Assembly: GCF_014217855.1 (NCBI RefSeq)
Contig: NZ_CP059059.1
Coordinates: 372,001 to 436,000, forward strand
Reading direction: 5' to 3'
Source: Synechococcus sp. HK01-R
GTDB lineage: Bacteria; Cyanobacteriota; Cyanobacteriia; PCC-6307; Cyanobiaceae
DNA: 64,000 nucleotides
Part shown: positions 11,614 through 55,364 of the stretch, piece after piece
Position numbering within the stretch: the stretch's first letter is position 1
Layout: each line of letters begins with the position of its first letter
Notes under the pieces: generated by a model
Database searches by the model: none
Seen by the model: only the letters and a program-made list of their open reading frames with translations
What the model was told of the DNA's origin: nothing
Translations under genes and position numbers: made by a program

Positions 11614-11841
11614 ATGGCCGAGACAGCCCCCGCCCTCAAGAAAGGCACCCTGGTGCGGGTCAACCGCCAGGCCTACGCCGGCAGCACCGAAGCTGCAGCC
11701 AGCGATCCATTGCCCCCCACCTACATCTTCGAGGGCCCGGGCGAAATCCTTCTCGTGAAAGGCGACTACGCCCAAGTGCGCTGGCGTCGTCCAGTTCCGG
11801 ATGTGTGGCTCAAGCTGGATCAGCTCGAAGCCTGCGGCTGA
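11614..11841 (+). CDS. ndhO: NAD(P)H-quinone oxidoreductase (NDH-1) subunit O
   Basis: A 75-residue protein from ATG 11614 (an in-frame GTG lies just before at 11611). The core [50 protein letters not shown] is the NdhO signature. NdhO is a small OPS-type subunit of the cyanobacterial NDH-1 complex with a role in cyclic electron flow. It is a lone + strand gene in a minus-strand neighbourhood. The last 22 bases overlap the convergent glycosyltransferase gene. Confidence 0.92.
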
Positions 11842-13889
11842 AGCTGCTGCTCAACCTCCTGCACAGCGCGGGGGACCGAGAGAGCGGCAGAGGGCAAGCG
11901 CCAGAAGGCCCCAGACAGCACGGCCCCAAGGTCATCCAGAGCCACCAACAACGGCTGGGAGCCATGCCGATGTCGAGCCTCGGCCGCCACCGCGCTCGCC
12001 CTCCAAGGGGCCCAATCCGCCAGGAGCACCACAGATCGATAGGCCGCAGGCCAGGGGTTTCCTGGCAGCCGCACCTGAAGAGCAGCAAACTGCCGTTCTG
12101 CTTCGCCTGGTCGATTCCCCAGCAGGGCGAGCAGGGCAAGGCTCCAATGGGACTGAACCGCCTGGGGATCGCGTCGGCGTTCTTGCTCTGCCTGTCGACG
12201 GACCCGGTCGCGATAGAGCCTATGGCCATCAAGCATGTGCTCCAGAGCTACTGCCTGAAACAGGGGATCCAAGCCGGCAGGCCCTTGCGCCAAGCCCGCA
12301 GCAAGCGTGGGGAAACGCTCTTCAAATCCTGGGAGCGGCCTTGATTGAGGCCGCCGCCGCCAGAGGGAATAACTGCCGCCCTGAGGTCTTGGGAAGCGCT
12401 CCACCCGCTCGAACAGACCACTGCGGCGCACCGCCTGATCAAGACGTGTGGCGCTCTTGCGAACGGACCCCTGATCGCCCTCAGCGAGCAGCACCAAGCT
12501 GGCGCGATCGAGCACGGGCTGCAGGTCACTGCGACGGCCTCCGAGCTGGCGGCCGACCAGCTGACCGCCGTGGCGACGGCCGTAGTAGCTCACGTTGTGC
12601 TGATTGAGATCAGGGGTACTCGGTACAACGATCAGCGTGGAAGGTGCAGCCTGGGGATCACCTCCACCAGCCCGGCGAACGATGGCCTCCAAAGGGCCCT
12701 GCGGCTGCTGGCGCAAACGAGACGCCTGGGCACTCCAGCCAGCCGGAAGGCACGCCAGCAGGCCCGAGACCAGAGCCAACGGCGCCAGCCATGGCAACGA
12801 TCCAGGCCAGCGCGAACGCCACCAGAGTCCCCACTGCCACCAGCCGCGCGTCAGCAGCAGGATCAAGGGAGCCAACAGCGGTGCGATGTAACGGTCGTCC
12901 TTGTTGGGACTGAGGCTTGTGACGATCCACCCCGCCAACAGGGTGACGAGCAGAAACCTCCAGCCCAGGGAGTCATCCCCGTCGGTACGGGTGCACTGCA
13001 ACCCCCAGAGCAGCAGTCCTCCCAGTCCGACGGCCAGCAGAACGACTCCGATCTGCCCAGGCAGAAGCTTGGGATACCAGAGCCATCCCGCCAGGGTCAG
13101 CGGGCCTGGATCCCCCTCTCGGGATGCCGACTCCAACACCGCCCGGTTGGTGCCACCGAGGGTGGTGATCCAGTTGTGATGCAACCAGGGCAGCACTCCC
13201 GCCAACACCAGGATCAGGCCCGTCAACAGCTGCCAACGGCGACCATGACCGCGACGAAGCGAGCCCCAGGCGACCCAGGCGAGAGCGGGTATCAGCACGA
13301 GCAGCGCACTCTGTTTCACCAGCAGCGCCACGGTGCAGGCCAGCGCCGCCGCGATCGCTTGGCTCCAGCGGCCTCCGCGCTGGGGATGCCACCAACAGCT
13401 CAGACGCCAGAGCGCCAACACCACCGTGGCACTGAGAGACATTTCCAACACGTAGTCGCTGCGTAACTCCAGCAGCGCTGGAGCGACGGCCAACAGCAAG
13501 CTGGCCAGGAGCGCAAAGCCTCTGGCCTCGCGGCGCTCCTGCCGCAACGTCAAGGCCCAGGAGGCGACGCCCAGCAACAACAGGCCGTGCCAAAGGCTGA
13601 GGCTCCAGGCCGCTTGAGCCGGGGCATCACCGGCTGCCGCCATCACCGTGCCGTTGACCAGCGAGGCCAGGGGCGGAATCTTTGGGGAGAGATCGAGCAG
13701 GGCCTGCCAACCCCGCCAACCGCCACCGGGGAGCAACCCAAGGGCTCGACCATGCTCAAGGGCACTATTGAGATAGTCGGCTTGATCCCAAGCGGGGAGC
13801 CCGCTCTGCAGCATCCACCAAAGCCGGTCGATTCCGGTGGCAAGCAACCAGATCAGCAGGACAAGCGCACGGAACAGCCAAGGGCCCAT
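11820..13889 (-). CDS. GT39/ArnT-like membrane glycosyltransferase with a C-terminal soluble region
   Basis: A 689-residue protein with about 11 membrane helices in the first ~400 residues. The first loop has the acidic motif PAWDQADY, matching the catalytic Asp region of GT-C (PMT/ArnT) enzymes that use polyprenyl-phosphate sugars. From about residue 420 a soluble part begins, and residues 560-680 look helical and TPR-like ([22 protein letters not shown]). It is the last gene of a cysK/DnaJ-like/GT unit: its ATG shares one base with the DnaJ-like TGA. Sugar and acceptor are unknown. Other GT-C-like proteins lie at 19.5-26.0 kb. Confidence 0.82.
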
Positions 13890-15807: not shown

Positions 15808-17475
15808 TCAGAACTTGAAGGTGGTCTGGACCAGACCGCCGAAGACGTTGAAGGTACCGTCGTAGCCGTTGCCATCGGTTACGAGGCTACGGGTGCCCTG
15901 ACCCAAGGGGCGGGACAGATAGAACAGAGCCGGGGTGATGGCGATGTTGTCGGTCACCTGGAAGTTGTAATACAGCTCGAAGGCATAGTTGCCATCGAAG
16001 GGAGTATCGCTACCTTTCAGAGCCGTGGCGAAGGTGGGCTGACCGAAGGCGAAACCCAGATCATTGCCCTTCAGGAACACATCATCCCACTTCAGGCCGG
16101 TGAACCAGCTCTGAGAGGTTGTGTAAGAACCTTCTTGAATGTCGTCGCCAGAAACATTGTTCAGAGCCCAACCCACAGAGATGGAAGGGATGAAGCCTGC
16201 TTTCTTAGGCTGCCAATAAGCGTTGAGGGCGTAGCTGTTGGAAGAGCGGTCGCCGTCTTTGCCCAAGCAATCGAGGTTGAAGTTATCGCTAGCGCCACTC
16301 AAGCCTTGTTGAACGAATTGAGTGGAACGACGCATGCCGGAACGGCATTGGCCATAGCGATAGCCGAAGGCCACACCCCACTCAGGGCCGCCATAACCGA
16401 TCTGCGCCAGCAGGTTGGCACGGGAGTTGTCGGTCATGAAACCGCCGGTGGAGGAATCTGATTTGTTCCCTTCACCATCGTCAGCTACGTAGTTGACGGA
16501 CACGCTGAAGGCGTTGGCGCCCTTCTTGACCTTCTGCTTCCAGTAGGCACCAATCAGCTGACCGGTCTCCTTGTTGTAGACACCAGGAGTGCCAGCAAGA
16601 GCGAAGTAATCGAGGATTTTGGCTCCACCCTTGTTGTAAACAGAGGGCCACATCGCCAGAGACTCGGTGTTACGAGCAAGAGCACCGGCAATCACGGTGA
16701 ACTCTTTGCCGACCGGGAACTTGTAATACAGACGATCAAGGACAACGTTGTTCTCAGTTGCCTCAGCGATGTCCAGCTTGGTCAGGTTGACGCCGCCACC
16801 ATCAAAGGCATTGTCGTTATCGAAGTTGCCAGCACGGAGGCGGGCATACAGCTTGTCCTTACCGGTGAAGCTGGTGTTGAAGGCCAGACGCTGGTCGTAG
16901 TTGAAGGTGAAGGCGCCGAACTCCTTGTTGTAAGCGTTGGCTCCGCCGCCGCCAGTCCTGTTGTTCCAGGCAGTGTCGTCAACGCTATCGCCGCCAGCAG
17001 TCGTGGCACCCATGACGAAGGTGGTTTGACCCTTCAGCTTGGTGGTGGTGGAGAACTGGGTCGCTTCCAGCTCACCCACGCGGGCCTCGAGACCGTCGAC
17101 GCGGCCCTTGAGGATGGCGAGCTCCTTCTCGAACTCGGCCATCAGGCGCTTGAGCTCGTCGGTCACTTCAGTGACGCGGTCGAGACAGGCGTTCAGCAGA
17201 GCAGCCGCCTCGAAGCGGGTCATGGCGCGGTTGCCGCGGTAGGTGCCGTTGGGATAACCGGCGACGCAGCCGTAGCGCTCGATCAGGTTGGAGAGAGCCT
17301 GGTAAGCCCAGTCGGTCGGGTAGACGTCGGAGAACTGGGAGATGCTGGTGACCTGCTCGCCAGAAGCGGCGTAGTCAGACACACCGTTGATGTTCAGCTC
17401 AGCAGCAGACGCAGCCACAGGAGCCAGAAGGCCCAGGGCAGCAGGTGCCACCAGCAGTTGCTGGAAGAGTTTCAT
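15808..17475 (-). CDS. SLH-domain outer-membrane porin (som / iron-uptake porin family), copy 2
   Basis: A 555-residue protein from the ATG at 17475. A Sec signal peptide (MKLFQQLLVAPAALGLLAPVAASA) ends near residue 24. An SLH domain follows (about residues 45-100: ISQFSDVYPTDWAYQALSNL, NGTYRGNRAMTRFEAAALL), then a coiled coil (about 103-140) and an OprB-type beta-barrel ending in Phe (TTFKF). The SLH domain anchors to cell-wall polymers and the barrel forms a solute channel. It is paralogous to the gene immediately upstream: the first ~148 codons are almost identical while the barrels differ. The mRNA leader carries a Yfr1-complementary ribosome-binding site. Confidence 0.93.
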   Translation of the reverse strand: MKLFQQLLVAPAALGLLAPVAASAAELNINGVSDYAASGEQVTSISQFSDVYPTDWAYQALSNLIERYGCVAGYPNGTYRGNRAMTRFEAAALLNACLDRVTEVTDELKRLMAEFEKELAILKGRVDGLEARVGELEATQFSTTTKLKGQTTFVMGATTAGGDSVDDTAWNNRTGGGGANAYNKEFGAFTFNYDQRLAFNTSFTGKDKLYARLRAGNFDNDNAFDGGGVNLTKLDIAEATENNVVLDRLYYKFPVGKEFTVIAGALARNTESLAMWPSVYNKGGAKILDYFALAGTPGVYNKETGQLIGAYWKQKVKKGANAFSVSVNYVADDGEGNKSDSSTGGFMTDNSRANLLAQIGYGGPEWGVAFGYRYGQCRSGMRRSTQFVQQGLSGASDNFNLDCLGKDGDRSSNSYALNAYWQPKKAGFIPSISVGWALNNVSGDDIQEGSYTTSQSWFTGLKWDDVFLKGNDLGFAFGQPTFATALKGSDTPFDGNYAFELYYNFQVTDNIAITPALFYLSRPLGQGTRSLVTDGNGYDGTFNVFGGLVQTTFKF

Positions 17476-17489
17476 GGAGTTCCTCACAC
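17030..17489. repeat. 460-bp direct repeat, copy A (5' part of porin copy 2)
   Basis: Aligned at a constant offset of 1800 bases with 18830-19289. I count three mismatches, two of them silent and one changing Gly to Ser in the coiled coil. It covers the SD region, signal peptide, SLH domain and coiled coil; identity stops abruptly at both ends. Confidence 0.95.
17480..17489 (-). promoter_or_regulatory. Porin copy 2 ribosome-binding region, complementary to Yfr1 core
   Basis: The mRNA reads GUGUGAGGAACUCC directly before AUG. GAGGA is the Shine-Dalgarno, and GUGUGAGGA is perfectly complementary to the last nine bases of the conserved unpaired motif ACUCCUCACAC of the sRNA Yfr1, a known repressor of porin translation in Prochlorococcus. 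The pairing would cover the SD. Confidence 0.7.
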
Positions 17490-17616
17490 CAATTTGAGGG
17501 AAATGGAGCTCGCGGTAGCCGTACGCACAAAAATGCACGCCAGACCACGAACGAATCGAGCGTACAGAGGACATCTGATCGCCGGCCAGCTGGTCAGTGA
17601 AAAATCTGTCTACCAA

Positions 17617-17642
17617 CAAAAAACCCCGGCCAAGGGCCGGGG
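17617..17642 (-). terminator. Intrinsic terminator of the upstream porin gene
   Basis: Stem CCCCGGCC (17624-17631) with GGCCGGGG (17635-17642), loop of three bases, and a six-T tract in the minus direction. It lies 50 bases after the stop of the porin at 17692-19275, so each porin has its own terminator. Confidence 0.88.
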
Positions 17643-17691
17643 CGCTGGTCAACTCCTCAATCGCGAAAGCTGACAAATCGATCTGAAGCAA

Positions 17692-19275
17692 TCAGAACTT
17701 GAAGGTGGTTTTAACAAGGCCACCAAAGTTATTGAAAGTGGCATCGCCATCTTGATTCAGCAATCGGGTCCCCTCACCGAGGGGTCGGCTGAGATAGAAG
17801 AGAGCAGGAGTCACAGAAATGTTATCTGTAACCTGGAACATGTACCACCACTCAAAAGCATAGTTGCCGTCGGCCACGAAATCGCTTTCTGAATTGTCGC
17901 GGTAATCAATGGATGTAACAAAAGTCGGCTGACCGACGGCCATACCGGCAGCATTGCCTTTCAAGAAAACATCAGCCCATTGCAAACCAACATACCAAGA
18001 TTGGGATGTTGCGCTTTTGATGGGCGTAGTATCGAGACCGTCTACGGAGTTCAAGCCCCAGCCTGTGCTGATGCTGGGAATCCAACCTGCAGTTTCCGGA
18101 GTCCACCAAGCACTGAGACCAACTGAATTGCTAACCCCTGCACCAGAAACAAGCACCGAGAAAGGCGTTGCATTGCCTCCGTAAACACCTGCACCGTTAT
18201 CGCCGGATGCGTAGTTGTAAGCGGCAGCAAGACCCCAGGAATCCTTAGCATAGGCTAACTGGACGGTTCCATTGGAGGCCGCTGCATCAGTTGCGATACC
18301 TCCACCAACTCCCTTCTCTGAGCTTGATAGATTTCCGTTTGCTGAGACGTAGTTGGCACTGATACTAAAGCCATCCTTCTGCCACCAGACGCCGGCACCA
18401 GAACCTAACGTCAAGTTGTATGCCCCTGGGGCACCGGCATAGGTAAAGAAGTCGAGAATGGTATCAGAGGGATACGCACTCGGCCAGACCGCGAGCATGT
18501 CGTCTTGACGAACGCGCCCACCAGCCGTGACCGTAAAGTTTTCGCCGACAGGGAACTGATAGAACAGTCGATCAACACCCACACTGTTGGCACCACTGGG
18601 CTCTTCGAAGGCGACTTCCATCGCAGTCAGGCCAGTGCCAAAAACAGAATTACCAAAATTACCAGCACGCAGACGGGTCTTCAGCAAATCCTTACCCGTA
18701 AAGCTGGTCAAAAGCTCTAAGCGATAATCATAATTGAAAGTAAATGCGCCAAGATCTTGATTGTAAGTATCATTGGCTGATGACTCGCTACCACCAGCGG
18801 TGGACGCACCCATCACGAATGTGACCTGGCCCTTCAGCTTGGTGGTGGTGGAGAACTGGGTCGCTTCCAGCTCACCCACGCGGGCCTCGAGACTGTCGAC
18901 GCGGCCCTTGAGGATGGCGAGCTCCTTCTCGAACTCGGCCATCAGGCGCTTGAGCTCGTCGGTCACTTCAGTGACGCGGTCGAGACAGGCGTTCAGCAGA
19001 GCAGCCGCCTCAAAGCGGGTCATGGCGCGGTTGCCGCGGTAGGTGCCGTTGGGGTAACCGGCGACGCAGCCGTAGCGCTCGATCAGGTTGGAGAGAGCCT
19101 GGTAAGCCCAGTCGGTCGGGTAGACGTCGGAGAACTGGGAGATGCTGGTGACCTGCTCGCCAGAAGCGGCGTAGTCAGACACACCGTTGATGTTCAGCTC
19201 AGCAGCAGACGCAGCCACAGGAGCCAGAAGGCCCAGGGCAGCAGGTGCCACCAGCAGTTGCTGGAAGAGTTTCAT
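17692..19275 (-). CDS. SLH-domain outer-membrane porin (som / iron-uptake porin family), copy 1
   Basis: A 527-residue protein from the ATG at 19275. It has the same signal peptide, SLH domain and coiled coil as the adjacent copy, then a different beta-barrel (from about residue 150) that also ends in TTFKF. Barrel motifs such as LFYQFPVGENFTVTAG and YNFQ/YMFQ-VTDN-I-TPALFYLSRPLG are shared with copy 2, so the barrels are related but diverged, with length changes in loops. It lies upstream of copy 2 and has its own terminator. The promoter region contains two inverted repeats (19316-19347 and 19373-19421). Confidence 0.93.
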   Translation of the reverse strand: MKLFQQLLVAPAALGLLAPVAASAAELNINGVSDYAASGEQVTSISQFSDVYPTDWAYQALSNLIERYGCVAGYPNGTYRGNRAMTRFEAAALLNACLDRVTEVTDELKRLMAEFEKELAILKGRVDSLEARVGELEATQFSTTTKLKGQVTFVMGASTAGGSESSANDTYNQDLGAFTFNYDYRLELLTSFTGKDLLKTRLRAGNFGNSVFGTGLTAMEVAFEEPSGANSVGVDRLFYQFPVGENFTVTAGGRVRQDDMLAVWPSAYPSDTILDFFTYAGAPGAYNLTLGSGAGVWWQKDGFSISANYVSANGNLSSSEKGVGGGIATDAAASNGTVQLAYAKDSWGLAAAYNYASGDNGAGVYGGNATPFSVLVSGAGVSNSVGLSAWWTPETAGWIPSISTGWGLNSVDGLDTTPIKSATSQSWYVGLQWADVFLKGNAAGMAVGQPTFVTSIDYRDNSESDFVADGNYAFEWWYMFQVTDNISVTPALFYLSRPLGEGTRLLNQDGDATFNNFGGLVKTTFKF

Positions 19276-19289
19276 GGAGTTCCTCACAC
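18830..19289. repeat. 460-bp direct repeat, copy B (5' part of porin copy 1)
   Basis: Partner of 17030-17489 with three mismatches over 460 bases. It ends at the base where the two leaders diverge, nine bases beyond the Shine-Dalgarno/Yfr1-complementary segment. Confidence 0.95.
19280..19289 (-). promoter_or_regulatory. Porin copy 1 ribosome-binding region, complementary to Yfr1 core
   Basis: Identical to the leader of copy 2: GUGUGAGGAACUCC precedes AUG, so both porins could be controlled by the same sRNA through the same site. Confidence 0.7.
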
Positions 19290-19315
19290 AGGAAAAGCGC
19301 AGTGCGCCAATCAAT

Positions 19316-19421: not shown

Positions 19422-19513
19422 AATTCCCGCCCGGCGGCAACGCTCCAGAATCGGTGCTTACTCCGCCCAGGAACTTGACCGTGCGTTCAGACCAGCGCTC
19501 GCCGAGAACGTTC

Positions 19514-21127
19514 ATGGGCTTGTCGCGCGAAGCGCTGATCGCTGCTCTTTTCTTTTGGGTCATCGGCCTTGGGCTTCAAGCCTGGCGCTCCCACGTGCTG
19601 TTGGCCAGCTACGACCAGGGAATCTTCCAACAGGTGCTCTGGAACAGCCTCCGGGGCCATCCCTTCGAAAGCACCCTCTCCTCACAGCTGTCCACCAACG
19701 TGATCCACGGCGGCGAAGCGCCAGCCCTTGGCTATGCCCGCCTCGGACAACACTTCACCCCCACACTCCTGCTCTGGGCCCCCCTGCTGGCACTGATTGG
19801 CGCTGCAGCTCTACCCCTGGTTCAGGTGACGCTGATCGCAGCTGCCGGTCTGCTGCTGCACAGACTCGCCAGCAGCGGTCTCCCCATCCGCACCGCCAAC
19901 TGGATCACTTACGGCTTTTTCTGCGGCAATGCCCTCGTGGGACCAACTCTGGGGAATTTCACTGATCTCTGCCAGCTTCCCTTCGCGGTGTTCGCACTGA
20001 TGCTCGGCCTGCTCGGGCGACGGTCCTGGCTGATCCTCACGGCGGCGCTGCTGATCCCACTGATCCGGGAAGACACCGGCATCCTCCTCGTGGCCGTGGG
20101 GCTCTGGATGCTGCTGCGAGACAGGGTCCGCTGGCCACTGGCCTTTGCGCTCATTGCCTGGGGCGGCGGCTGGATGCTGGTGGTGACCAGTCAGATCATG
20201 CCCCTGTTCTCCGACGACAACAGCAAGCGTTTCATGGTCGAGAACTTCGGCCAATACCTCACGGAAGACAAAGCCGATGGGGCGAGCAGCCTGAGCATGG
20301 TGCGACAGGCCCTCGGTCAGCCTTTGACCCTTCTCCAGGAGCTGATCGACCCTCCTGGGCAGACGGTTCTTTATCTCCTCGGCCACGCCCTCCCCTTTTT
20401 GTTTGTGCCCCTGATCAGCCTCGATGCCTGGGTGATAGCGGGGCCGAGCCTGCTTGGGCTGTTTCTAGCCCAGGGCAGCAACGACCCCCTGTCGATCACG
20501 ATCCGCTACACACTCCTTGTGGTGCCGGGATTCAGCCTGGGCACGGTGTTCTGGTGGCAGCGCAGGTCCGTCGCCCCACCCGGCCCGCGGACGCGCCTGG
20601 CCTGGGGAGCAGCCCTTGCCCTCTCGCTCGTGCTCACCATCAGCAGCAATCCCCATCGCAGCCTGTCCTTTCTGATCCCCGACAGCGTTCGGCCCTGGGT
20701 GTACAGCACTCCTCTGGCGCAGTGGCGACACGGACACGCAGCCAGGGAGGTCTTGAGCGTGATCCCGGCGGATGCAAGCGTGAGCGCCAACACCAATCTG
20801 GTGCCCCTGCTAGCACGCAGGGAAGTTGCCGTACGTTACCCCTACAACACCAGCTATCTCGACAGACATCAAGTGGAGCGCTCCGTTGACTGGATCGCCA
20901 TCGATCTCGACTGGCTGGAGCGCTACGCGGTTGCCTTCCGGGGGGACTGGAAAGCTCTTCAACGCATCCGAGAAGACCTGCCCCAGCAACTCGACACCTT
21001 CAAAGTGCAAGCCCTCAAGGATGGTGTTGTTGTGCTGCAACGCGATGGAGCCATCCAATCAAACCTGCAGAAAGCCGTGAATGATCGTCTCCAAAGGCCC
21101 TTACCAAGAGATCCCCGCAACCGGTGA
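19514..21127 (+). CDS. DUF2079 integral membrane protein (GT-C-like), paralogue 1
   Basis: A 537-residue protein from ATG 19514; an in-frame GTG at 19454 would add 20 polar residues. It has about ten hydrophobic helices and the DUF2079 block LLASYDQGIFQQVLW, then HPFESTLSSQLSTNV, GYARLGQHFTP and LIREDTGILL. The Asp in the first loop (DQGIF) sits where GT-C enzymes hold their catalytic acid, which fits a lipid-linked-sugar glycosyltransferase, though DUF2079 activity is not established to my knowledge. It is closely related to the protein at 23023-24645 (the two share the ESTLSSQLSTNV and DDNSKRFMVENFGQYL blocks). Confidence 0.83.
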   Translation: MGLSREALIAALFFWVIGLGLQAWRSHVLLASYDQGIFQQVLWNSLRGHPFESTLSSQLSTNVIHGGEAPALGYARLGQHFTPTLLLWAPLLALIGAAALPLVQVTLIAAAGLLLHRLASSGLPIRTANWITYGFFCGNALVGPTLGNFTDLCQLPFAVFALMLGLLGRRSWLILTAALLIPLIREDTGILLVAVGLWMLLRDRVRWPLAFALIAWGGGWMLVVTSQIMPLFSDDNSKRFMVENFGQYLTEDKADGASSLSMVRQALGQPLTLLQELIDPPGQTVLYLLGHALPFLFVPLISLDAWVIAGPSLLGLFLAQGSNDPLSITIRYTLLVVPGFSLGTVFWWQRRSVAPPGPRTRLAWGAALALSLVLTISSNPHRSLSFLIPDSVRPWVYSTPLAQWRHGHAAREVLSVIPADASVSANTNLVPLLARREVAVRYPYNTSYLDRHQVERSVDWIAIDLDWLERYAVAFRGDWKALQRIREDLPQQLDTFKVQALKDGVVVLQRDGAIQSNLQKAVNDRLQRPLPRDPRNR

Positions 21128-21146
21128 TGCCCTTTCTAAAACGATG

Positions 21147-21171
21147 CCCCCGACCGGAAACCGATCGGGGG
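21147..21171 (-). terminator. Hairpin, possible minus-strand terminator
   Basis: An 11-bp stem with one mismatch (21147-21157 with 21161-21171) and an AAA loop. In the minus direction it is followed by ATCGTTTTAG, a weak T tract; in the plus direction no T tract follows. It could end the transcript of the small ORF at 21225-21278, or stabilise the 3' end of the DUF2079 mRNA. Confidence 0.4.
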
Positions 21172-21224
21172 CTCTCGCCAGGTCCGCTCTGTCGCGAAAC
21201 CGATTGATCAGTCAGAAGGTGCCG

Positions 21225-21278
21225 TCAGTCGGCGTTCTCCGCGATCAGCAGACCCTGAATCAAAGAACTGGAACTCAT
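21225..21278 (-). CDS. Candidate 17-residue peptide with very strong Shine-Dalgarno
   Basis: ATG at 21278, sequence MSSSSLIQGLLIAENAD, TGA at 21225. Upstream the mRNA reads AGGAGGAGGTGTCC before the ATG, one of the best ribosome-binding sites in the window, which is what draws attention to it. It lies on the minus strand in the 255-bp gap between two plus-strand membrane-protein genes and is followed by a hairpin. The peptide is too short for a membrane helix and I know no homologue. It could be a leader peptide, a small regulator, or a relic of a lost gene. Confidence 0.3.
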   Translation of the reverse strand: MSSSSLIQGLLIAENAD

Positions 21279-21382
21279 GGACACCTCCTCCTGAATGGAT
21301 TGATGAACGCCGGCAATGCCTTCGATGCTCAGACGACATCCGAAGATGGAATCCCAGCATCACATCACTGCGATCGGAACTC

Positions 21383-23026
21383 TTGAACCATAACGGAACT
21401 CATCTGTTCTTGAAAGGCAGACCGGCTCTTGTTCTCTGGCTTTTCACCCTCTGCCTCTGGCTGCCCTGGCTGGGAAATCTGCCCTTGAGGGACTGGGATG
21501 AAGCACTCATCGCCTCCATCTCCCATTCCACGATGGGGCAAGACGGCTTGGAACGCCTGCTGCCGATTCGCTGGGATGGAAATTATCTCAACAAGCCCCC
21601 TGGCCTGCACTGGCTCATCGGTGCCATGAGCCAGTGCTTTGGGAGGGCGGAGTGGGCCTTGCGCCTTGTTCCCGCCTTGCTCTCCACCCTGGCAGTGCCT
21701 CTGATTGTGCTCCTACGCCAGGAGTTGGCAGTCACGTGCGGTAAAGGAAGTGATGGGAGACGCAATGACGAACGCTCAGCCTGGCTTGCGGGCTTGATCC
21801 TGATGACCTTGCTCCCCATGGCACGCCAAGGTCGACTGGTGATGCTCGATGGAGTGCAGCTGAGTTGCGCACTCCTGCTCTGGTGGGGATGGTTGCGAAG
21901 CCTTCGTGAGCCTTGGATAGGTCTGCTTGCCGGCCTGGGCAGTAGCGGAGTGCTTCTAAGCAAACCACCCGCTCTTCTTGGCTTCCTGGTGATCCCGATT
22001 GTTATCGGACTGGCAGAAAACCAACTCGTTCCCAACAGTGAGAGAAGCAATAGGGCAAGGATTCACTGGTCAACAAGATTTAGCTGGGTACTCCTGGGTT
22101 TAGTGCCAGGGATCAGTTGGCATGCCTGGAATTTCAACCAACGTGGCGATCAGGCCTGGCACATGTGGGGAGCTCAGGGATTGGCTCGGGTCACCACCGT
22201 GCTGGGTGACAAATCTGGGGCCTGGGTGATGCCACTCACAGAAGTGCTGGAAGGAGGCTGGCCCTGGTTGCTCCTCCTCCCATCAGGCTTGATCTGGGCG
22301 TGGCGCTGTCGACACCGTCGCGTCGGGTGCTGGGAACTGGGATTACTGATCGGCTGCAGCGCGATGGTGCTTCCTCTCAAAACCCAGCTGCCCTGGTACA
22401 GCCATCTGCTCTGGCCTCCAATTGCCCTACTTTGCGCCGAAAGTCTGAACGAGCTGCTTGAAAACCAGCGTCATCGTTGGATCGCGGGCTGCTGGGCTGG
22501 ACTCGGAGCAATCTTGATCCTGGCAGCCTCACTGCTCCAGTTCAAAGTCATCGCCATTGCAGTACCGCCGAGCCCAGCATTATTGGCTGGCGCAGGTCTC
22601 CTCGTCGGCGGCATCTCGCTGCAATCAACGTCAAAAAACAGGCGACGCCAGGGGTTGACTGTTCTGTTGTGTGGCTGGAGCCTTGGCCTGCTGTTTCTCT
22701 GGCAGAGCGGAAGCTGGCTGTGGGAACTGAACGAAACATGGGATCCGCGCCCCATTGCAGCCCGGATCCGCACTCTTCCTGCGTCTGCCCTTGTTCTTCG
22801 AGAAGGCAACGAACATCCGGCCCTGGATTGGTATTCAGAACGAAAGATTGCCCGAATCTCAGAGAGTTCCCATCCAGCAGGAGAGTTTTGGCTGATCAGC
22901 AATCAATTTCAGGAGCGATGCCAGATGTTTGATGCAGCCAAGCCCTTTGATTCGGAGATTTGGGGACTTTGGTTTTGCCCCGCTCTCGATACAGACTCTA
23001 TTGTCGCCCCATCGCCAACACCATGA
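21383..23026 (+). CDS. GT39/ArnT-like membrane glycosyltransferase
   Basis: A 547-residue polytopic protein. Start TTG 21383 is the only reasonable start before the first helix (LVLWLFTLCLWLPWLGNL). The first loop has LRDWDEALIASIS, the GT-C catalytic acid region, then YLNKPPGLHWLIGA, a motif typical of ArnT/PMT family 39 enzymes that transfer sugars from polyprenyl phosphate. About 11 helices precede a soluble C-terminal domain (about residues 440-547). The TGA overlaps the next ATG (ATGA), tying it to two DUF2079 genes. Donor and acceptor are unknown. Confidence 0.83.
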   Translation: MNHNGTHLFLKGRPALVLWLFTLCLWLPWLGNLPLRDWDEALIASISHSTMGQDGLERLLPIRWDGNYLNKPPGLHWLIGAMSQCFGRAEWALRLVPALLSTLAVPLIVLLRQELAVTCGKGSDGRRNDERSAWLAGLILMTLLPMARQGRLVMLDGVQLSCALLLWWGWLRSLREPWIGLLAGLGSSGVLLSKPPALLGFLVIPIVIGLAENQLVPNSERSNRARIHWSTRFSWVLLGLVPGISWHAWNFNQRGDQAWHMWGAQGLARVTTVLGDKSGAWVMPLTEVLEGGWPWLLLLPSGLIWAWRCRHRRVGCWELGLLIGCSAMVLPLKTQLPWYSHLLWPPIALLCAESLNELLENQRHRWIAGCWAGLGAILILAASLLQFKVIAIAVPPSPALLAGAGLLVGGISLQSTSKNRRRQGLTVLLCGWSLGLLFLWQSGSWLWELNETWDPRPIAARIRTLPASALVLREGNEHPALDWYSERKIARISESSHPAGEFWLISNQFQERCQMFDAAKPFDSEIWGLWFCPALDTDSIVAPSPTP

Positions 23027-24645
23027 CCATGGAGCGGGACCTGAAGTTATCAGCGAAGGCTCAGCACACGGTTTGGATCGCTGCCGCAGTATTTGCCGCC
23101 ACCGGATTCGCCCTCCAATGGTGGCGAATGCAGTCCCTGACTGCATCAATGGACCAAGGAATCTTGATGCAGGTTCTCTGGAATGGATTAAGTGGCCATC
23201 CTTTTGAAAGCACACTTTCCTCTCAACTGTCCACCAACGTCTCCCATAGCGGGCAGTTGCCAGCGCTTGGATACCACCGGCTAGGCCAACACTTCACCCC
23301 AGCCCTGGCTCTCTGGATTCCTCTGGTAGGAGTGATGGGGAAATGGGCCCTACCGATGCTGCAGGTCGCCCTGATCACCCTGGCCGGCCTGGTACTGCAT
23401 CAACTGGCACGCGATGAACTGGAGCCAAAACTGGCCAGCTGGATTCCACTGGCTTTCTACGGGGCCAACGCCGTTATCGCCCCTTGCATGCTGGGAAATT
23501 TCACCGATCTCAGTCAGCTCCCACTGTGTTTCTTTGTGCTGCTGCTAGGCCTAAAGCGTCACTCACTGCCTCTCATCGCACCAGCAGCATTGTTAATGCC
23601 TTTAATACGGGAAGATACTGGTGTAGTCCTGGTAGGCATCGGCATTTGGCTAGGAATCCGCGATCGTCAACGTTGGCCCCTGGCAGCAGCACTCATTGCT
23701 TACGGCGGGAGCTGGGTGACTATAGCGACCAATCTCTTGATGCCACTCTTCAGTGATGACAACAGCAAGAGATTTATGGTCGAAAATTTTGGCCAATATC
23801 TTCAGGGTCGCGAACAGGCTTCCAGCCTTGAAGTGCTTGGCCTAGCTCTTCAACAGCCCTGGATTTTGCTGCGGGAACTGATCACACCTCCAGGCGACAC
23901 ATTCACTTATCTATTGGCACAGGGATTACCCCTTTTAATGATTCCCTACCTATCCATCGACAGCTGGCTTCTCATGGGCCTTCCCCTGTTGGGCTTGCTT
24001 CTGGCTCAGGGCTTCAACAATCCCTTGTCGATCAGCATTCGCTATACCTACTTGGTCGTACCTGGCTTATTCGTTGGCACCATTTTCTGGTGGCGCCATC
24101 ATCAATCACTCTTTCGTTCGCGACGACTACGACGACTTTGGAGCGGCGCCATTGCGCTCTCCATCCTGTTCACCATTAGCGGCAATCCCAACCGCAGCCT
24201 CTCCTGGTTGGTACCAGACAGCATTCAACCCTGGATCTACCGCAGCCCGATGGAGCAGCTTACCCATGGCGCAGCAGCCCGTAGCCTGATCGCGTCAATT
24301 CCAGCAGACGATTCAGTTGCCGCCACAACACAGTTAGTCCCTCATCTCGCTGCGCGAGAAGCTCTGATTCGCTTCCCTTACAACGCGATCTATCTCAATC
24401 GGGAAAGACAGCCAACTCCCGTCGATTGGGTTGCAGCTGATCTCCACAATCAAATACGTTTTCAACAATACCCAAAAGAATTAAGAGGCCTAAAACAAAA
24501 TTTATCAAGCATCGAAATACTCCGCAAAAAGGGTTACGGACTAGTGGGTTTCAATAGTGACGTTGTGCTTTTGCACTTAAACCAAACTGATAACCCTTCT
24601 GCGGCCAAGCAATTCGAAACACTCAAAAACCAGATCTCGCAATGA
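23023..24645 (+). CDS. DUF2079 integral membrane protein (GT-C-like), paralogue 2
   Basis: A 540-residue protein starting at ATG 23023, inside the previous stop codon; a longer frame from 22960 lies within the preceding gene. It aligns end to end with paralogue 1: SMDQGILMQVLW, HPFESTLSSQLSTNV, LGQHFTPAL, LIREDTGVVL, DDNSKRFMVENFGQYL and NPLSISIRYTYLVVPGL. The last ~65 codons (24430-24645) are clearly AT-richer than the rest. It overlaps the third gene by ATGA. It is likely a membrane glycosyltransferase of the GT-C type, by inference from fold and neighbours. Confidence 0.83.
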   Translation: MTMERDLKLSAKAQHTVWIAAAVFAATGFALQWWRMQSLTASMDQGILMQVLWNGLSGHPFESTLSSQLSTNVSHSGQLPALGYHRLGQHFTPALALWIPLVGVMGKWALPMLQVALITLAGLVLHQLARDELEPKLASWIPLAFYGANAVIAPCMLGNFTDLSQLPLCFFVLLLGLKRHSLPLIAPAALLMPLIREDTGVVLVGIGIWLGIRDRQRWPLAAALIAYGGSWVTIATNLLMPLFSDDNSKRFMVENFGQYLQGREQASSLEVLGLALQQPWILLRELITPPGDTFTYLLAQGLPLLMIPYLSIDSWLLMGLPLLGLLLAQGFNNPLSISIRYTYLVVPGLFVGTIFWWRHHQSLFRSRRLRRLWSGAIALSILFTISGNPNRSLSWLVPDSIQPWIYRSPMEQLTHGAAARSLIASIPADDSVAATTQLVPHLAAREALIRFPYNAIYLNRERQPTPVDWVAADLHNQIRFQQYPKELRGLKQNLSSIEILRKKGYGLVGFNSDVVLLHLNQTDNPSAAKQFETLKNQISQ

Positions 24646-26033
24646 AGTCGCCGCGCCCCATCCGTCTGCACTGGGTGGCCCTTTGCGTTGGGCTCCTCTG
24701 GTGGGGAGCCGCTGCACTACGCCATCACTGGCTGCAAAGCAACGGCTTCGACCTTGGGATCTACGACCAGGTGGCCTGGCAAATCGGACAGGGACTGGAA
24801 GCGCGCTCCAGCCTTCTGGGCCTTCATCACATGGGAAATCACGGTGCCTGGGTCTTCTATCTGATCGGCCTCCCCTACCGCTGGTTGCCTTCCGTGCAGT
24901 GGCTGTTTGCAAGTCAGGCCTTGGCACTGGCCTTCACAGCGCTGCCGATCACCGCCCTTTGGCGACAGCTTGGTTTGCCTGATCGGCTGTCACTCACTGC
25001 AGCATTGCTCTGGTGGCTGCAGCCACAGGTCTTCAACACAAACCTGTTTGATTTTCATCCGGAAACATGGGCAATGCCGGCACTCGCTGGGGCGATCTGG
25101 TGTAGCAGAGCGCGCCGGCCTCTTCTCTGGTTGACATGCCTGATCTTCTTACTCGGATGCCGGGATGGCCTTTCCTTGGTTGTGATGGGTCTTGGCCTTA
25201 GCGAATTGGCTCAAAAGCGTTGGCGCTGGGGAGCGAGCGCTCTCGTTCTCGGCTTTGGCTGGTTGCTCTGGCTGAGCCAATGGCTTTATCCAACACTGAA
25301 TGGAAATGGTGCTGGGCCTGCCGCCCTGGAACGTTTCAATCACTTGGGCACGAGTGTTCCCGAAATCCTGCTGAACAGCATCACGCAACCTTGGAGCTTG
25401 ATTCACACCTTGCCATGGGCAGAGATCCCGACTTTTCTTCTGCTCCTGGCCGCTCCCACTGTGCTGTTCTGGCGCAAGCGATCGATACCGATCCTGCTCG
25501 CAGCCTTACCTCTCTTGGCAGTCAACCTCCTGTCTGCAGATCCAGCACAACGCAATCTGGTGCACCACTACAACCTGCCGATGGCAGTGATTGCCGTGAC
25601 CGCTGCGATCGATGGATTAAGCAGTACAAAATGCCAACGTTGGCCCTGGCGACGCCTCATCGTGACAGCAGCCTGCTGGGCCCTGCTAGCCAAACCGGGA
25701 TACTTCCTGAGCATCTACACCAGTCGTCTGGATCAGATTGCAGATGTTCAACGAGCCGAACAGCTTGTTCAAGCAGAGGATCGCCTGCTAACCAGCAGCC
25801 ACTATGCGCCCCACTTCAGCGATAGAGCATGGATTGAATTGCTGAGACGGCGCAGCCAGATCGATGCAGGAGTGCAAACCTGGGATGCAATTCTCCTCAA
25901 CCCAAGCGATCCAGGCTGGTCATCACGTTCAACACTTCAAGACGATGCTCTTAAGCAAGCCCAGCAAGATCAATGGATGTGCAAAACATGGAAGTCAGGT
26001 CTCAGTCTCTGCAGAAAACCGAGAACGAACTGA
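24642..26033 (+). CDS. DUF2079 integral membrane protein, divergent member
   Basis: A 463-residue polytopic protein with about ten helices. The first loop NGFDLGIYDQVAWQIGQGLEARSSLLGLHHMGNHG and the segment NLFDFHPETWAMP follow the DUF2079 pattern (the xFDLGIYDQ acidic motif, then a His/Asp-rich loop). It is much less similar to the two large paralogues than they are to each other, so it is an older relative. It ends the ATGA-linked three-gene unit and is followed by a hairpin shared with psbD. Activity is unknown. Confidence 0.82.
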   Translation: MKSPRPIRLHWVALCVGLLWWGAAALRHHWLQSNGFDLGIYDQVAWQIGQGLEARSSLLGLHHMGNHGAWVFYLIGLPYRWLPSVQWLFASQALALAFTALPITALWRQLGLPDRLSLTAALLWWLQPQVFNTNLFDFHPETWAMPALAGAIWCSRARRPLLWLTCLIFLLGCRDGLSLVVMGLGLSELAQKRWRWGASALVLGFGWLLWLSQWLYPTLNGNGAGPAALERFNHLGTSVPEILLNSITQPWSLIHTLPWAEIPTFLLLLAAPTVLFWRKRSIPILLAALPLLAVNLLSADPAQRNLVHHYNLPMAVIAVTAAIDGLSSTKCQRWPWRRLIVTAACWALLAKPGYFLSIYTSRLDQIADVQRAEQLVQAEDRLLTSSHYAPHFSDRAWIELLRRRSQIDAGVQTWDAILLNPSDPGWSSRSTLQDDALKQAQQDQWMCKTWKSGLSLCRKPRTN

Positions 26034-26130: not shown

Positions 26131-27186
26131 TCAAAGAGCGTTACCACGGGGCAGAACCTCTTCAGGGAAGACGAAGTTTTCGTGCGGCTGGTCAGCCGGT
26201 GCCATCCAGGCACGCAGACCTTCATTGAGAAGGATGTTCTTGGTGTAGAAGGTCTCGAATTCGGGATCTTCTGCAGCGCGGATCTCCTGCGACACGAAGT
26301 CGTAGGCGCGCAGGTTGAGGGCCAGGCCGATGATGCCGATGGAGCTGGTCCACAGGCCCATCACAGGCACAAACAGCATGAAGAAGTGCAGCCAGCGCTT
26401 GTTGGAGAAGGCGATCCCGAAGATCTGGCTCCAGAAGCGGTTGGCGGTGACCATCGAATAGGTCTCTTCTTCCTGGGTCGGTTCGAACGCCTTGAAGGTG
26501 TTCGACTGCTCGCCGTCCTCAAACAGGGTGTTCTCCACGGTGGCGCCGTGGATGGCACAGAGCAGAGCACCGCCGAGGATGCCGGCCACGCCCATCATGT
26601 GGAAGGGGTTCAGGGTCCAGTTGTGGAAGCCCTGAAGGAAGAGCAGGAAGCGGAAGATCGCGGCCACACCGAAGGAGGGAGCGAAGAACCAGCTGCTCTG
26701 GCCGAGGGGGTACATCAGGAAGACGCTCACGAACACCGCAATCGGACCGGAGAAGGCGATGGCGTTGTAAGGACGGATGCCGACGAGACGGGCAATCTCG
26801 AACTGACGCAACATGAAGCCGATCAGCGCGAAGGCACCGTGGAGAGCCACGAAGGCCCAAAGGCCGCCGAGCTGACACCAGCGCACGAAGTCACCCTGGG
26901 CCTCAGGGCCCCAGAGCAGCAGGAGGCTGTGACCCATCGCATCAGCGGGGGTGGACACAGCAGCGGTGAGGAAGTTGCAACCTTCCAGGTACGAGGAGGC
27001 GATGCCGTGGGTGTACCAGGAGGTGACAAAGGTGGTGCCGGTGAGCCAACCACCGATGGCCAGATAGGCCGTGGGGAAGAGCAGGATGCCGGACCAGCCG
27101 ACAAAAACGAAGCGGTCGCGCTTGAGCCAGTCATCGAGGACGTCGAACCATCCCCGCTGTGGCGCGCGTCCTACAGCGATCGTCAT
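26131..27186 (-). CDS. psbD: Photosystem II D2 reaction-centre protein
   Basis: A 351-residue D2 protein of normal length, from [21 protein letters not shown] to the LPRGNAL end. It contains five transmembrane helices and the conserved [14 protein letters not shown] stretch and the His ligands for P680 chlorophyll and the non-heme iron. D2 with D1 binds the PSII cofactors. No psbC follows: the downstream neighbour is a terminator and then convergent DUF2079. Most cyanobacteria carry a psbDC operon, and a second monocistronic psbD is common, so this is probably the stress/high-light-type second copy. Confidence 0.98.
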
Positions 27187-54185: not shown

Positions 54186-55364
54186 ATGAAGGCGATGATC
54201 CTGGCGGCCGGCAAGGGGACGCGGGTCCAGCCGATCACGCACGTGATCCCCAAGCCGATGATTCCGATCCTGCAGAAGCCGGTCATGGAGTTTCTGCTGG
54301 AGCTTCTCAAGGAGCATGGCTTCAATGAGGTGATGGTGAATGTCTCCCACCTCGCTGAGGAGATCGAAAACTATTTCCGAGACGGCCAGCGCTTCGGTGT
54401 CGAGATCGCCTACAGCTTCGAGGGTCGAATCGAAGACGGTGAGCTGATCGGTGATGCCCTCGGATCAGCCGGCGGACTCAAGAAGATCCAGGACTTTCAG
54501 ACCTTTTTCGATGACACCTTTGTGGTGCTCTGCGGCGATGCCCTGATCGATCTCGATCTTAGTGAGGCCGTGCGTCGTCACAGGGAGAAGGGTGCGATCG
54601 CCAGCCTGGTTACCAAACGGGTTCCACGGGATCAGGTGAGCAGCTACGGCGTCGTGGTGACCGACGAGCAAGACCGCATCAGTGCCTTCCAGGAGAAGCC
54701 GCGCGTCGAGGAGGCGCTGAGCGACACAATCAATACCGGCATCTACATCTTCGAACCGGCCATCTTCGAACACATTCCTTCCGGGCAACCCTTCGATATC
54801 GGCTCGGATCTCTTCCCGAAGCTGGTGGAACTTGGTTCACCCTTCTACGCCTTGCCCATGGACTTCGAATGGGTCGACATCGGCAAGGTGCCCGATTACT
54901 GGCAAGCCATTCGCAGTGTTCTCCAGGGCGACGTCCGCCAGGTGGGCATTCCAGGCAAGGAAGTTCGCCCCGGCGTCTATGCCGGCCTCAACGTGGCTGC
55001 CAACTGGGACAAGATCAATGTGCAAGGCCCTGTCTATGTGGGTGGCATGACCAAGATCGAAGACGGCGCCACGATTCTCGGTCCCTCGATGATCGGTCCC
55101 AGCTGTCACATCTGCGAAGGGGCCGTGATCGACAACTCGATCATCTTTGATTATTCCCGGATCGGACAGGGGGTTCAGCTGGTCGAGAAGCTCGTGTTCG
55201 GCCGCTACTGCGTTGGCAAAAACGGCGACCACTTCGACCTGCAGGAAGCAGCCCTTGACTGGTTAATCACCGATGCCAGACGGCAGGACCTGGTGGAACC
55301 TTCTCCGCAGCAGAAGGCCATGGCAGAGCTCTTGGGCACGGATCTCACCCCGGCAGCGAGCTAA
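54186..55364 (+). CDS. Sugar-nucleotide pyrophosphorylase (mannose-1-phosphate guanylyltransferase-like)
   Basis: A 392-residue protein. The nucleotidyltransferase domain has MKAMILAAGKGTRVQPITHVIPKPMIPILQKP (GxGTRxxPxT and the Lys of PKPM), VVLCGDALIDLDLSEA (metal Asp) and NTGIYIFEP. A left-handed beta-helix hexapeptide domain follows from about residue 255. This cyanobacterial type is annotated as mannose-1-phosphate guanylyltransferase or glucose-1-phosphate enzyme; the sugar cannot be decided here. It might feed the GT-C enzymes at 11.8-26.0 kb. It overlaps metF by 20 bases, convergently. Confidence 0.87.
   Translation: MKAMILAAGKGTRVQPITHVIPKPMIPILQKPVMEFLLELLKEHGFNEVMVNVSHLAEEIENYFRDGQRFGVEIAYSFEGRIEDGELIGDALGSAGGLKKIQDFQTFFDDTFVVLCGDALIDLDLSEAVRRHREKGAIASLVTKRVPRDQVSSYGVVVTDEQDRISAFQEKPRVEEALSDTINTGIYIFEPAIFEHIPSGQPFDIGSDLFPKLVELGSPFYALPMDFEWVDIGKVPDYWQAIRSVLQGDVRQVGIPGKEVRPGVYAGLNVAANWDKINVQGPVYVGGMTKIEDGATILGPSMIGPSCHICEGAVIDNSIIFDYSRIGQGVQLVEKLVFGRYCVGKNGDHFDLQEAALDWLITDARRQDLVEPSPQQKAMAELLGTDLTPAAS

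Follow-up and report, generated by a model that had tools for sequence, protein, structure and literature searches.

The Rgt galacturonosyl system of Rhizobium comprises several ArnT-like GT-C enzymes and an enzyme resembling dolichol-phosphate-mannose (DPM) synthase. The locus described here, from Synechococcus sp. HK01-R, resembles it in holding several GT-C genes and in the polyprenyl-phosphate sugar synthase encoded within the cassettes of its relatives, although the protein families differ. ArnT (GT83) and the protein O-mannosyltransferases (PMT; GT39) provide a further comparison. The middle gene of the cassette resembles them in sequence, through PMT and PMT_2 similarity and its DE and NKxP motifs; the DUF2079 proteins share the GT-C fold over most of their models, but carry a DxGxxxQ-like motif rather than DE and lack detectable sequence similarity to solved structures. 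DUF2079 (PF09852), which we take to be a member of the Pfam GT-C clan, was found in 102 of the 292 genomes sampled across the phylum, and our literature search found neither an established activity nor a described function for it.

The lipid A of marine Synechococcus has been reported to bear galacturonic acid (PMC4515613). Glycosyltransferase-rich genomic islands have also been described in these organisms, and were proposed to help them avoid grazers and phages (Dufresne et al. 2008; PMC2441476). Our locus shares with these islands the turnover of glycosyltransferase genes, but differs in being a small cassette, composed largely of GT-C enzymes, whose single position between porin and psbA genes is fixed; neither of these two genes is mentioned in the main text of that work.

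A four-gene cassette bordered by porins and psbA

The window, i.e. the whole 64,000-nucleotide stretch of DNA that was analysed, belongs to a complete 2.48 Mb genome from a genus that includes Synechococcus WH7803. Open reading frames and Pfam matches bear out the preliminary description of four large GT-C-like membrane-protein genes, three DUF2079 and one GT39/ArnT-like, all on the plus strand at 19454/19514-26033. The cassette and the features discussed with it are as follows.

11820-13889, minus strand: fifth GT-C protein, PMT domain (Pfam PMT 23.5 bits against a cut-off of 22.7)
15808-19314, minus strand: two SLH-OprB porins of the somA type, the fixed left border (Pfam SLH and OprB)
19514-21127, plus strand: D1, DUF2079 protein of the long type, 537 aa (Pfam DUF2079 448 bits)
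21390-21138, minus strand: conserved structured RNA, about 253 nt (nhmmer, fold z, covariation)
21383-23026, plus strand: ArnT/PMT-like GT-C glycosyltransferase, 547 aa, TTG start (Pfam PMT and PMT_2)
23023-24645, plus strand: D2, DUF2079 protein of the long type (Pfam 422 bits), in its own lineage with the D2 of genome G012
24642-26033, plus strand: D3, DUF2079 protein of the short type, 463 aa (Pfam 320 bits)
26131-27186, minus strand: psbA, photosystem II D1 protein, the right border (Pfam Photo_RC)

The genome has no DUF2079 genes other than D1, which has an alternative upstream GTG start at 19454, D2 and D3, and all three score far above the PF09852 cut-off across nearly the whole model. 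The ArnT-like protein exceeds the gathering thresholds of PMT (PF02366; 38.2 bits against 22.7) and PMT_2 (PF13231; 26.3 against 26.1). A closer assignment to the ArnT equivalog (NCBIfam, PRK13279) was rejected, with 26.2 bits against a cut-off of 567. Three genes had been described as joined by ATGA overlaps with a fourth ahead of them, which is correct: the overlaps lie at 23023-23026 (ArnT-like gene and D2) and 24642-24645 (D2 and D3), and D1 is set apart by 255 bp that hold the structured RNA and its terminator on the other strand. Beyond psbA, a cbiO-type ABC gene and an rpaB-type regulator gene (Pfam ABC_tran and Response_reg) complete the fixed right border.

Two further genes of the window had been listed alongside the cassette. 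The fifth GT-C protein, at 11820-13889, stands narrowly above the Pfam PMT cut-off; it also has a weak C-terminal TPR match below the cut-off, an arrangement reminiscent of TMTC proteins, and its gene is conserved beside dnaJ-cysK in several relatives. The sugar nucleotidyltransferase gene at 54186-55364 is real and lies about 28 kb away, and its functional tie to the cassette is not supported.

DUF2079 proteins are predicted to adopt the GT-C fold

AlphaFold2 models were computed from alignments of 48 sequences for D1 (long type) and 25 for D3 (short type), reaching a pLDDT of 91.6 and pTM of 0.91 for D1, and 86.6 and 0.87 for D3. When compared with the PDB (VIA), the D1 model matched OST-A (Z 18.6), PglB (Z 18.3) and ArnT (5f15, Z 18.2); every one of the 48 chains listed between Z 18.6 and Z 9.6 is GT-C, and the next chain, which is unrelated, scores 4.5. 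These matches span OST, PglB, ArnT, PMT, ALG9/12, Aft/Emb, DPY19, PimE and the GPI transamidase subunit U. The D3 model matched Pmt4 (Z 20.5) and ArnT (5f15, Z 18.9), and again all listed chains (Z 10.5-20.5) are GT-C. Structure prediction and comparison thus agree with the GT-C assignment first proposed, and both D1 and D3 are predicted to have this fold. Solved-structure relatives of the DUF2079 proteins or of the ArnT-like protein were not detectable by sequence search of the PDB.

The preliminary description had also pointed to an acidic motif in the first loop. Within the alignments, Asp34 of D1 is invariant in 48 of 48 long-type proteins and Asp37 of D3 in 25 of 25 short-type proteins; in the D1 model, a helix spanning residues 5-27 (TM1) precedes Asp34. 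The acidic motif is kept in all 73 DUF2079 sequences of the two alignments, with the invariant Asp directly after TM1 and surroundings of the form YDQGIFxQ or FDLGIYDQ. The ArnT-like protein instead has a D-x-DE motif of the DWDE type, which is invariant among 14 relatives, as are the YLNKxPxLH positions.

Linked genes support polyprenyl-phosphate sugar donors

At the same site in related genomes, DUF2079 genes are accompanied by an ArnT-like gene, a gene combining GT2 and GtrA domains, and another PMT_2 gene. The GT2-GtrA protein aligns end to end with the dolichol-phosphate-mannose synthase 5mlz (E 4e-36), and at one locus outside the site (L120) a DUF2079 gene overlaps a GtrB-type gene closely related to the sll0501 structure (E 8e-77). 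Because DPM-synthase and GtrB-type genes are linked with DUF2079 in these relatives, the genomic association supports polyprenyl-phosphate sugars as the putative donors, in line with the chemistry originally suggested. The window's own cassette holds no DPM-synthase-type gene; elsewhere in its genome, at about 850-851 kb, a single GtrA gene adjoins a GT2 gene and may supply the donor. This pair (L144:2200-8337) is found downstream of transketolase; grouped with it are an NDP-sugar epimerase and a membrane protein of 668 aa that has no Pfam match.

Linkage of DUF2079 with GT2 genes was considered as a general rule and rejected: 20 DUF2079 loci from other cyanobacteria had no GT2 neighbor and one GT-C neighbor, and 20 control regions gave identical counts. 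The donor argument is therefore limited to picocyanobacteria. Among the loci of other cyanobacteria, three of the short type have a common neighbor, a membrane protein of 421-441 aa that by eye resembles a sugar transferase. The long type is often found near a SasA-like gene, related to a histidine kinase with a KaiB-like domain; the gene adjoins DUF2079 in L164, L167, L171 and L179, and Pfam shows the domain for L103 alone.

The site between porin and psbA is an exchange hotspot

Wherever the loci cover them, the borders are constant within the genus, formed by dnaJ-cysK-porin to the left and psbA-cbiO-rpaB to the right. Between these fixed borders, 22 same-genus genomes carry 12 gene sets, as judged by gene classes assigned from BLAST best hits. 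Genomes with close flanks can differ entirely: in one pair (G006 and G021) the flank proteins are 99% identical and no cassette gene classes are shared, and in another (G011 and G022) the flanks are 96% identical and the ArnT-like gene 62%. Likewise, D3 is just 49% identical between the window and its nearest relatives by flank (81%), yet 63% identical between the window and two genomes with 74% flanks (G012 and G001). The site is therefore an exchange hotspot, with fixed flanks and replaced gene content.

The site was also found in Synechococcus WH7803, whose cassette comprises a D1 gene and an ArnT-like gene, in SynAce01 and in many Prochlorococcus single cells, and the same gene classes recur across Synechococcus, Cyanobium and Prochlorococcus. 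Four members of the family with small genomes have cysK directly beside cbiO, and the site there lacks porin, cassette and psbA. No phage-borne copies were found. Some cassettes alone encode small membrane proteins (L039:7493-9519, L044:3582-7716, L046:10582-11622 and L156:8192-11280). Pfam gave no match for those tested, and a motif resembling EEISWGERL...QGETxLHN recurs in several of the proteins, which may form one uncharacterized family.

The preliminary description had D1 and D2 arise by duplication on either side of the ArnT-like gene. A phylogeny of 151 DUF2079 proteins places D1 among 15 sequences that form a group with full support; D2 pairs, again with full support, with the D2 of G012, in a group that also holds freshwater and Prochlorococcus members. 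The AU test rejects D1 and D2 as each other's closest relatives (p 2.9e-62), and with this the duplication is rejected; the two are old paralogs of separate lineages that spread independently.

A conserved structured RNA lies within the hotspot

The gap between D1 and the ArnT-like gene encodes, on the minus strand, an RNA that folds better than shuffled sequences (z -4.1) and ends in a strong terminal hairpin (21172-21146), a terminator. Its nhmmer match is 3e-69, with a model built from an alignment that includes the window's copy. In an alignment of 38 sequences, the paired fraction is 97.3% of cells, and two-sided changes occur in 203 cells, compared with 60 in shuffles and at most 62 with partners slid; because this alignment also yielded the structure, the latter is somewhat favored, which does not explain the two-sided changes. 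By blastn and nhmmer, 29 of the 31 same-genus genomes carry the RNA, including 24 of 24 of good quality, and it is single-copy except in two with a second match. It occupies the site in 22 of 22 loci of the genus, whichever GT-C genes surround it, and is missing from empty sites as well as from 55 other loci (35 DUF2079 loci outside the site, of which 15 were picked and 20 fetched, and 20 control regions). In G012, a second, diverged copy lies between the D3 gene and psbA (L049:14014-13819).

Within the RNA is a short ORF of 17 codons at 21278-21225 (MSSSSLIQGLLIAENAD), with a strong Shine-Dalgarno sequence. Its reading as a plain small protein was rejected: the core codons double as paired bases of the RNA's central helix and synonymous changes are few, so its coding is unproven.

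The RNA matches no Rfam family, with a best score of 14.9 bits in a permissive search against a gathering threshold of 70, and is a candidate new RNA family. Yfr103, an abundant non-coding RNA of this group, is 290-328 nt long with seven paralogs in CC9605 (PMC5069720). Compared by description only, the RNA reported here is about 253 nt and single-copy in nearly every genome, and this difference in copy number makes its identity with Yfr103 somewhat less likely.

Function of the cassette

We lean towards reading the four genes as a single allele of an exchangeable, envelope-directed cassette of GT-C glycosyltransferases. Each enzyme would sit in the plasma membrane and draw its sugar, on the periplasmic side, from a polyprenyl-phosphate carrier; the first-loop acid would lie at the catalytic center. 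It would pass this sugar to an acceptor, most likely LPS or some other glycan of the envelope, that is destined for the outer surface, such that strains with different enzyme combinations at this one site would display different glycan decorations, plausibly under selection by phage or grazers. The LPS reported for WH8102 and CC9311 is simple, its chain being built of 4-linked glucose and its lipid A bearing a galacturonic acid (PMC4515613), and leaves little room for many LPS-modifying enzymes.

The cassette might instead glycosylate envelope proteins, such as the neighboring SLH porins or an S-layer or motility protein, in the manner of PMT or PglB rather than acting on a lipid or polysaccharide. 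PMT and OST/PglB are among the closest solved folds, and the porins, whose adjacency is confirmed by their SLH and OprB domains, border the cassette; yet a common fold says nothing of the acceptor, and porin and cassette can occur apart. In one genome (G265), no recognized GT-C gene lies between porin and psbA, and genomes with an empty site keep porins elsewhere, so adjacency is no proof of a porin-directed function. A functional tie to porins is not supported, and we judge protein glycosylation unlikely. The variation at the site could also be read without any role in surface variation, as the outcome of lineages losing different parts of a single large ancestral cassette, horizontal exchange having contributed little. 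The recurrence of the same classes in Synechococcus, Cyanobium and Prochlorococcus implies that an old common pool existed, and turnover could in part reflect differential loss of ancient paralogs. Pairs whose flanks are 96-99% identical, yet which have no classes in common or have 62% identical alleles, are not readily produced by loss alone, and we find loss improbable as a full account.

A further alternative concerns DUF2079 itself, which may have the GT-C fold and yet serve as a scaffold or a lipid-linked sugar carrier for the ArnT-like enzyme. GT-C relatives devoid of enzymatic activity exist, PIG-U being reported as one (PMC7801869), and the matches of the D1 model include GPI-transamidase chains labelled U. 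Against this stand the first-loop Asp, invariant in 73 diverse sequences, and cassettes such as that of G001, in which DUF2079 occurs in the absence of an ArnT-like gene; we consider a non-enzymatic role very unlikely. DUF2079 is directly testable, given its GT-C fold, its invariant residue as a candidate for catalysis and the donor-synthase family linked to it.

Relative to the preliminary description, the new elements are that the site is an exchange hotspot and that it holds a conserved structured RNA. A broader and more tentative proposal, to which we give less credence than to the exchangeable cassette itself, is that picocyanobacteria possess a site akin to those of antigenic variation, which swaps sets of uncharacterized GT-C enzymes, DUF2079 included, between porin and psbA, and is built around a fixed, undescribed RNA that may regulate porin or cassette, or anchor recombination. 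Overall, the enzymes of this exchangeable cassette probably attach sugars to the cell surface of marine Synechococcus and Prochlorococcus, with a surface glycan as the putative product. The hosts are some of the most abundant photosynthetic organisms; if this reading is true, a compact, fixed and exchangeable glycan cassette would be a natural place to seek their determinants of phage and grazer resistance.
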